DNA of 64,000 nucleotides from Verrucomicrobiaceae bacterium (GTDB taxonomy: Bacteria; Verrucomicrobiota; Verrucomicrobiia; Verrucomicrobiales; Verrucomicrobiaceae): contig JAEUHN010000017.1 of assembly GCA_016795365.1 (NCBI GenBank), positions 372,001 to 436,000 of the forward strand. Reading direction: 5' to 3'. The translations under genes were made by a program, and so were the position numbers. Shown in pieces: positions 49,011 through 51,702 of the stretch. How positions within the stretch are numbered: position 1 is the stretch's first letter; each line of letters starts with the position of its first letter. The notes beneath the pieces are model-generated. The model searched no databases. It had not been told where the DNA came from and was given only the letters and a program-made list of their open reading frames with translations.

Positions 49011-49073
49011 CTCACACAAAGGCACGAAGACACGAAGGTATAAATTCTTTGTGTCTTTGTGCCTTTGTGTGAG
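49011..49073. repeat. CACGAAG-type inverted repeat, copy A
   Basis: The left arm begins CTCACACAAAGGCACGAAG (49011) and continues with ACACGAAGG to 49038. After a 9-base AT-rich spacer the right arm (49048-49073) ends TGCCTTTGTGTGAG. The mismatches are mainly C to T changes that remain G-U pairs in RNA. It sits directly upstream of the GxxExxY gene. Confidence 0.85.
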
Positions 49074-49082
49074 CCATTCTTC

Positions 49083-49460
49083 ATGACCGAAGAACTCGAA
49101 CGCATTGCGAAGGACGTTGTAGATGCCGCGATGAAGCTACACATCGCGCTCGGGCCTGGATTGCTGGAGAGCGTTTACACCATCTTGCTGGAAAAGAAGC
49201 TCCAGGAACGCGGCTACTCCGTGGAACGAGAGAAGCCTATCCCGTTCGAGTTCGAGGGCGTGAAGTTTGAGATGGGCTTTCGCGCCGATCTCATCATCAA
49301 TGACTGCTTCATCTTAGAACTGAAGTCCGTGGAGAAGCTGCTCCCCGTTCACTCGAAGCAACTGCTCACCTACCTCAAGCTCACCAGTATGAGACTCGGC
49401 CTGCTGATCAATTTCGGCGAAGCGCGTTTGAGGGATGGCATCAAGCGAGTGGCGAACTGA
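49083..49460 (+). CDS. GxxExxY family protein, PD-(D/E)XK-like fold
   Basis: A 125-residue protein. GPGLLESVYTILLEKKLQER holds the GxxExxY signature. FRADLIINDCFILELKSVEK gives the D...E-x-K pattern of the PD-(D/E)XK nuclease superfamily to which this family is assigned. ATG 49083 (MTEELERIAKDVVDAAMKLH). The gene lies between inverted-repeat copies A and B, 9 and 11 bases away, so repeat-gene-repeat looks like one unit. The function is not established; a role in moving or maintaining the repeat is an idea only. Confidence 0.9.
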   Translation: MTEELERIAKDVVDAAMKLHIALGPGLLESVYTILLEKKLQERGYSVEREKPIPFEFEGVKFEMGFRADLIINDCFILELKSVEKLLPVHSKQLLTYLKLTSMRLGLLINFGEARLRDGIKRVAN

Positions 49461-49471
49461 GTTTTTCTATT

Positions 49472-49560
49472 CTCACACAAAGGCACGAAGGCACAAAGGG
49501 GCTCTGAAGAGCTGGCACGCGACATCCCGATTCCTTCTTCCCTTCGTGCCTTTGTGTGAG
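49472..49560. repeat. CACGAAG-type inverted repeat, copy B
   Basis: CTCACACAAAGGCACGAAGG (49472-49491) and CCTTCGTGCCTTTGTGTGAG (49541-49560) are perfect 20-base inverted arms around a 49-base spacer. It follows the GxxExxY gene and ends 7 bases before a minus-strand gene remnant. Confidence 0.88.
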
Positions 49561-49566
49561 ACATCC

Positions 49567-51506: not shown

Positions 51507-51594
51507 CTCACACAAAGACACCAAGGCACGAAGAAGAGAGCGGTCGTCGAGTTTCATCTGGGAAGTTCTTGGTGTCTTCGTGCCTTTGTGTGAG
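51507..51594. repeat. CACGAAG-type inverted repeat, copy C
   Basis: The left arm starts CTCACACAAAGACACCAAGG (51507) and continues to 51535. The right arm (51566-51594) ends TTCGTGCCTTTGTGTGAG. Arms are imperfect, with the order of the internal 9-base units swapped. It precedes a truncated GxxExxY gene by 9 bases, the same spacing as copy A. Confidence 0.85.
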
Positions 51595-51603
51595 CCTTTT
51601 TCA

Positions 51604-51702
51604 ATGAACGAAGAACACGAGCGCATCGCACAGGACGTAATGGGCTCGGCGATGAAGCCGCACACGTTCTTATCTCAGGAGCGAGGCGTGGTCACGCGGT
51701 AG
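51604..51702 (+). pseudogene. Truncated GxxExxY gene remnant
   Basis: A 32-codon frame reads MNEEHERIAQDVMGSAMKPH and then diverges to a TAG at 51700-51702. The first 20 residues match the start of the intact GxxExxY protein at 49083 (ERIA-x-DV-x(3)-AMK-x-H), and the spacing from the repeat is the same. The GxxExxY motif and the nuclease core are gone. Confidence 0.8.

Follow-up and report, generated by a model that had tools for sequence, protein, structure and literature searches.

A GxxExxY nuclease gene bracketed by inverted heptad arms: one copy of a widespread and probably mobile unit

The closest described systems are the REP/REPIN/BIME systems of the RAYTs (PMC2817692, PMC3116915). 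In RAYT/REP systems an enzyme gene lies between inverted cognate repeats, with coevolution of the two, a correlation with repeat abundance, and repeat arrays (PMC2817692). The tag of a REP is GTAG or CGTC (PMC3733652). In the openly available literature, searched as full text and without subscription papers, which were outside the scope, we found only incidental mentions of GxxExxY proteins and no published description of the repeat words, or heptads, reported here. Cyanobacterial small dispersed repeats are intergenic hairpin repeats that look mobile, like the hairpins described below; to our knowledge, no enzyme has been tied to them.

The locus lies in a stretch of 64,000 nucleotides from a Verrucomicrobiaceae bacterium, here called the window. 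It has the following features:

49011..49073, no strand: upstream hairpin; arms 49011-49037 and 49047-49073, 27 nt, 93% complementary, 9-nt loop
49083..49460, + strand: GxxExxY gene, 125 aa, RecB/Cas4-like PD-(D/E)XK nuclease as predicted from TIGR04256, PF13366, an alignment and an AF2 model
49471..49561, no strand: downstream hairpin; arms 49471-49499 and 49533-49561, 29 nt, 90% complementary, 33-nt loop
51507..51594, no strand: third hairpin, of the same family; arms 51507-51535 and 51566-51594, 29 nt, 86% complementary
51604..51664, + strand: what is left of a second GxxExxY gene, its 5' end of about 20 codons, beginning 9 nt beyond the third hairpin

The arm of the upstream hairpin consists of three heptads (CACAAAG-G-CACGAAG-A-CACGAAG) with the tip CTCA, and the downstream hairpin is made of heptads of the same family. 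The gene begins with the ATG at 49083, 9 nt after the first hairpin, and its stop codon (49458-49460) is followed about 10 nt later by the second. The broken copy begins with the ATG at 51604, and its reading frame is closed downstream of the remnant; positions 51563-51664 share 78% DNA identity over 102 nt with positions 49042-49143. With up to two mismatches, CACAAAGGCACRAAG occurs 10 times in the window, every time inside the three hairpins, compared with an expectation of 0.2 and a maximum of 2 in shuffled sequence. Folded as single-stranded DNA, the hairpins have z-scores of -10.6, -7.4 and -3.4 in order of position. In the third, heptads 2 and 3 are permuted between the two arms, and the palindrome is therefore less perfect. 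The first-pass annotation had described CACGAAG-type repeats bracketing a GxxExxY gene at 9-11 bases and a third repeat copy 9 bases before a broken gene at 51604. Both spacings agree with those given here, the latter exactly; the observation is right but understates what is present.

Profile searches assign the window protein to TIGR04256 (5.5e-38; 129.9 bits against a curated cut-off of 35) and to PF13366, PDDEXK_3 (1.5e-36). In an alignment of 78 diverse GxxExxY members, four residues (D69, E79, K81, Q93) never vary, and three others (E29, Y32, Y97) are at least 90% conserved. Judged from the alignment, these residues correspond to the PD-(D/E)XK set (D, ExK) plus a QxxxY motif. The AlphaFold2 model has a pLDDT of 96, and its predicted fold matches Cas4: the best match in the PDB is the Cas4 protein SSO0001 (4ic1, E 4.9e-4, TM 0.58), followed by lambda-type exonucleases. 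A PDB search with the protein sequence found no relative of solved structure. No Y1/HUH tyrosine transposase (PF01797) is encoded between the repeats, where the protein gave only the TIGR04256 and PF13366 matches. We also considered membership in a defence system, which was rejected because the profile resemblance to Cas4 and to an RT-associated PDDEXK nuclease is only weak, and carriage by phages, rejected with two relatives in IMG/VR in a narrow pattern scan.

Of the 141 genomes of the class, 82 have TIGR04256, with up to 11 copies per genome. The 186 GxxExxY loci that we read represent at least ten phyla. Of these loci, 111 belong to the class; the other 75 were drawn from a scan across GTDB covering, among others, Planctomycetota, Geobacter and its relatives, Proteobacteria, Ignavibacteria, Chloroflexi, Cyanobacteria and Armatimonadetes. 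At each locus, the 170 nt on the 5' side of the gene were compared with the 170 nt on the 3' side as inverted repeats, and a score of at least 16 was counted as paired arms. Matching inverted arms flank the gene at 129 of the 186 loci (69%), compared with 1.1% of 930 control places taken within these loci; 57 loci have no detectable paired arms. Mispairing the loci gave that score in 8.9% of cases, because arm families resemble one another. Of 20 further loci, read later and all from the window's family, 16 have paired arms. By a similar flank comparison, RAYT genes, the positive control, scored 14 of 20, and Uma2, another small PD-(D/E)XK family, 1 of 16. The unit with paired heptad arms is specific to GxxExxY genes. 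Uma2 (DUF820) was itself considered as a second repeat-bracketed nuclease and rejected, the single positive locus being one that adjoins a GxxExxY gene. There, two CACGGAA repeats enclose an Uma2 gene that immediately precedes the second GxxExxY gene of the window's genome (G000:C6:96264-97500, L001).

A typical arm contains three heptad copies spaced 8-11 nt. The heptads include CACGAAG, CGCAAAG, CACAGAG, CACGGAT, CACTAAT, ACAGGAT and CATGAAG, and the outer tips are, for example, TTAACCAC or TCTCAC. A complete hairpin on each side of the gene, as the first-pass annotation had it, is what the window contains but is not the usual form: it accounts for 14 of the 129 paired cases, whereas in 95 the gene sits within the loop of one long-range hairpin; the remaining 20 have a hairpin on one side. 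In the gene-in-loop cases, the median distance from the end of the 5' arm to an ATG is 6 nt, and that from the first base of the stop codon to the start of the 3' arm is 7 nt. The elements fit closely into the gaps of operons: between the stop codon of the upstream gene and the 5' arm the median distance is 0, and both neighbours are co-directional with the GxxExxY gene in 64 of 129 cases. Elements recur between gatA/gatC and gatB, between lolD and a permease gene, between cysD and cysN, and in a nuo operon; many are old and have been kept vertically at one operon site. When a genome has several GxxExxY copies, their arms usually differ, in contrast to recent IS copies. In one separate case (L375, G029:C59), a hairpin of the CGCAGAG type contains three tandem hairpins of the CGCAAAG type in its loop, an arrangement that is a nested insertion.

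The sequence of the arms follows that of the protein. Across 99 elements, arm similarity and protein identity are correlated (Mantel r 0.50), a value reached in none of 2000 permutations, the largest of which gave 0.14. The correlation persists among pairs with less than 60% protein identity (r 0.38), whereas equal-length control sequence 60 nt outside the element gives 0.01 and 0.06. Restricted to cross-phylum pairs, r is 0.48, and 0 of 2000 within-phylum permutations reached it. At the lolD-permease site in Opitutaceae, the 12 proteins encoded at this one site fall within one clade of 22, and the heptads of orthologous elements vary among CACGAAA, CGCGAAT and CACGGAA. Median arm complementarity at this site is 23 within an element and 13 between orthologues; therefore, the heptads of one element change together. 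This covariation, evidence from sequence comparison, supports a putative recognition of the arms by the nuclease.

Only two GxxExxY genes are present in the window's genome (6.7 Mb in 55 contigs). The other one (C6:97073) is bracketed by two hairpins, one directly before the start codon and one beginning at the stop, whose sequence (ACCACGGAATGCACGGAAGACACGGAA ...) is unlike the window type. Each gene therefore has its own repeat, rather than both sharing one. Window-type hairpins without a gene are found on contigs C18, C45 and, imperfectly, C30, and gene-less CACGGAA matches at further places. A 21-bp dispersed tandem repeat containing TAATGACGAATGAGGAAG is also present (L003 around 1381-1411, G000:C20, C25 and C44, and the genomes G141 and G144); it is common to the relatives in the family and unrelated to the hairpins.

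Comparison with related genomes reveals gain and decay at defined sites. At the site of the window element, a sister species, 88% identical in the upstream gene, retains only the tail of a hairpin and the first codons; in the other genomes of the family with a readable flank, nothing comparable was found at this site. Among 30 Opitutaceae genomes, the lolD-permease site carries a clear full element in 9, and in at least 6 the two genes overlap with neither element nor hairpin. Several genomes keep the arms with the gene deleted, and two of them retain recognisable first codons. No target-site duplication is visible between empty and occupied lolD-permease sites, though drift may hide one, and no transposition or excision was seen. 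The nearest relatives of the window protein (77-81%) come from Planctomycetota and Chthoniobacter. DNA homology between the window and the Planctomycetota copy (L157) extends from the gene start to the outer end of the downstream hairpin, and the surroundings are unrelated; the element is thus present in distant phyla at unrelated sites. A Chthoniobacter copy (L371, G133:C1:97500-101500) has about three tandem hairpins, in units of 117 bp, on each side of the gene, and a gene-free array of nine units lies elsewhere in the same genome (L372, G133:C5). Such tandem arrays of whole hairpins suggest local amplification. The solo hairpin on C18 has no counterpart in the relatives G142, G147 and G145. 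In the gap that holds the C45 hairpin (G000:C45:17842-17918), the sister species bears a hairpin of a different heptad family (L411, G141:C71).

Gene-less hairpins number tens to hundreds per genome in some genomes. We scanned the 141 genomes of the class with a degenerate three-heptad pattern and found at least five matches in 65% of the genomes with GxxExxY and 12% of those without. The partial rank correlation of heptad matches with GxxExxY, given Y1_Tnp, is 0.58; that with Y1_Tnp, given GxxExxY, is 0.03. None of these genome-level values is corrected for phylogeny. In the 3-Mb genome G112, about 61 heptad hairpins of several families lie in 448 kb, and all four GxxExxY genes read there bear arms of the abundant solo families. 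The correspondence failed elsewhere: G142 is rich in window-type hairpins (a dozen or more), and we had predicted a window-type gene in this genome, yet all three of its GxxExxY genes bear arms of other kinds. Loss of a cognate gene would account for these hairpins, but such a loss was not shown. G056 has 46 pattern matches and no detected GxxExxY gene; the high count in G049 was disregarded, as its reversed control equalled it. The window's genome also contains 10 Y1_Tnp genes, and inverted REPs of the GTAG type flank the RAYT genes of this and other class genomes (L382-L401). A single genome thus has two repeat-nuclease systems that are unrelated to each other.

Like RAYT/REP systems, the GxxExxY unit has a single small gene for a (here putative) DNA-cutting enzyme lying between inverted copies of its own extragenic palindrome, covariation of repeat and protein, abundant gene-less repeats, and tandem or composite repeat arrays. 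It differs in that its enzyme belongs to the PD-(D/E)XK nucleases, with a predicted fold like that of Cas4, rather than to the HUH/Y1 transposases, the repeats are tandem heptads with a period of 8-11 and AACCAC or CTCAC tips, the gene usually sits in the loop of one hairpin, and the phylum range is very wide. GxxExxY arms lack the GTAG/CGTC tag. Because the HUH transposase and the GTAG tag are both absent, the unit is not a RAYT. IS200/IS605 elements are likewise small, with a single endonuclease gene and hairpins at their ends, but the GxxExxY unit has no Y1 transposase, its long inverted arms span the gene, and no target motif was found. Gene-less inverted-repeat derivatives of a gene-bearing element are familiar from MITEs and their TIR elements; here, however, there is no DDE transposase, and a target-site duplication was not detected. 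The unit does not qualify as a classical transposon, as it contains no transposase gene. Homing endonucleases, some of them PD-(D/E)XK enzymes, also occur as stand-alone genes at intergenic positions, whereas GxxExxY genes carry their own cognate repeats, occupy many sites per genome, and involve no intron or intein.

Taken as a whole, the locus is probably one instance of a minimal mobile unit that occurs widely, a PD-(D/E)XK nuclease gene with cognate inverted heptad arms; cleavage and transposition are inferred. The first-pass annotation had suggested an unclassified, non-transposase mobile unit whose repeats would be associated with GxxExxY genes and whose presence would vary between relatives. 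The association is borne out by the paired arms at 129 of 186 loci, by arm-protein covariation, and, despite exceptions such as G142, by a per-genome abundance that tracks GxxExxY. Presence and absence do vary, with a remnant in the sister species at the window site and full, gene-deleted and empty states at the lolD-permease site. With both in hand, an unclassified non-transposase mobile unit is the best reading, with transposition itself unobserved. Since the pattern closely repeats that of RAYT/REP, the most likely interpretation, by analogy, is that the nuclease recognises the heptads, cuts, and drives the copying or transfer of the hairpins; cutting and re-insertion are inferences. The nuclease would recognise its own heptad array or the hairpin formed by single-stranded arms, probably acting on the arms in folded single-stranded form, and would cut at the arms. 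Hairpins that have been excised or copied, whether or not they contain the gene, would then be re-inserted into intergenic gaps, and loss of the gene would leave a solo hairpin still usable by a cognate nuclease. Whether GxxExxY proteins are in general the enzymes behind the widespread, unexplained heptad hairpins, forming a PD-(D/E)XK mobile system convergent with RAYT/REP in which nuclease specificity and the six heptads of its hairpin co-evolve, is a question on which we are evenly divided.

The chief rival is that the nuclease is useful to the host or preserves itself, for instance in defence or repair, and spreads horizontally without mobilising the hairpins. Its arms would be regulatory or insulating: the protein would bind them as a DNA cruciform or as an mRNA stem and so regulate its own expression, or they would loop out the inserted gene so that translation of the operon continues. 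The long vertical persistence at gatA/C-gatB, lolD-permease, cysD-cysN and nuo with arms kept complementary is what this explanation would lead one to expect, as are the position of the gene directly after an upstream stop codon, often with co-directional neighbours, and the weak profile resemblance to Cas4 and the RT-associated nuclease. It leaves unexplained, however, the solo hairpins by the hundred, the tandem arrays of 3-9 hairpins, and the correlation between gene-less hairpins and the gene. An RNA role also receives no support from Rfam, in which no match exceeded the cut-off; the one match (25.8 bits, cut-off 100) was taken as chance. We consider this explanation unlikely.

It is also conceivable that the hairpins belong to an independent REP/MITE family, mobilised by a different transposase, for example a RAYT, and that GxxExxY is a passenger or a homing-type invader of the loop. 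Gene-less hairpins outnumber the genes, Y1_Tnp/RAYT genes are common (111 of the 141 genomes of the class), and G142 has many hairpins without a cognate gene. Yet of 20 RAYTs from these genomes 14 lie between GTAG-type repeats and none between heptad arms, and the hairpins show no partial correlation with Y1_Tnp beyond the 0.03 given above; on these two grounds RAYT was rejected as the mobiliser. Moreover, empty lolD-permease sites lack the hairpin, and some solo hairpins there keep gene remnants. An independent family thus appears quite improbable. That the hairpins are ordinary transcription terminators or chance palindromes beside a gene is scarcely credible. One hairpin does look terminator-like in a loose scan, but the number of terminator-like matches in the region (5) is close to the mean for shuffled sequence (3.4), and the arms also precede the start codon, match across the gene, and are rare at the control places (1.1%). 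The paired-arm comparison refutes terminators and chance palindromes as a sufficient explanation.

Under the preferred reading, that of a nuclease gene mobile with its own arms, GxxExxY, a common protein family without an assigned function, gains a concrete hypothesis, namely that the nuclease acts on the repeats that flank its own gene. The heptad hairpins, through their link to GxxExxY, gain a likely driver. The covariation of arm and protein provides a natural series for studying DNA specificity in a nuclease of 125 residues, and PD-(D/E)XK nucleases would represent a second, independent origin of REP-like systems.
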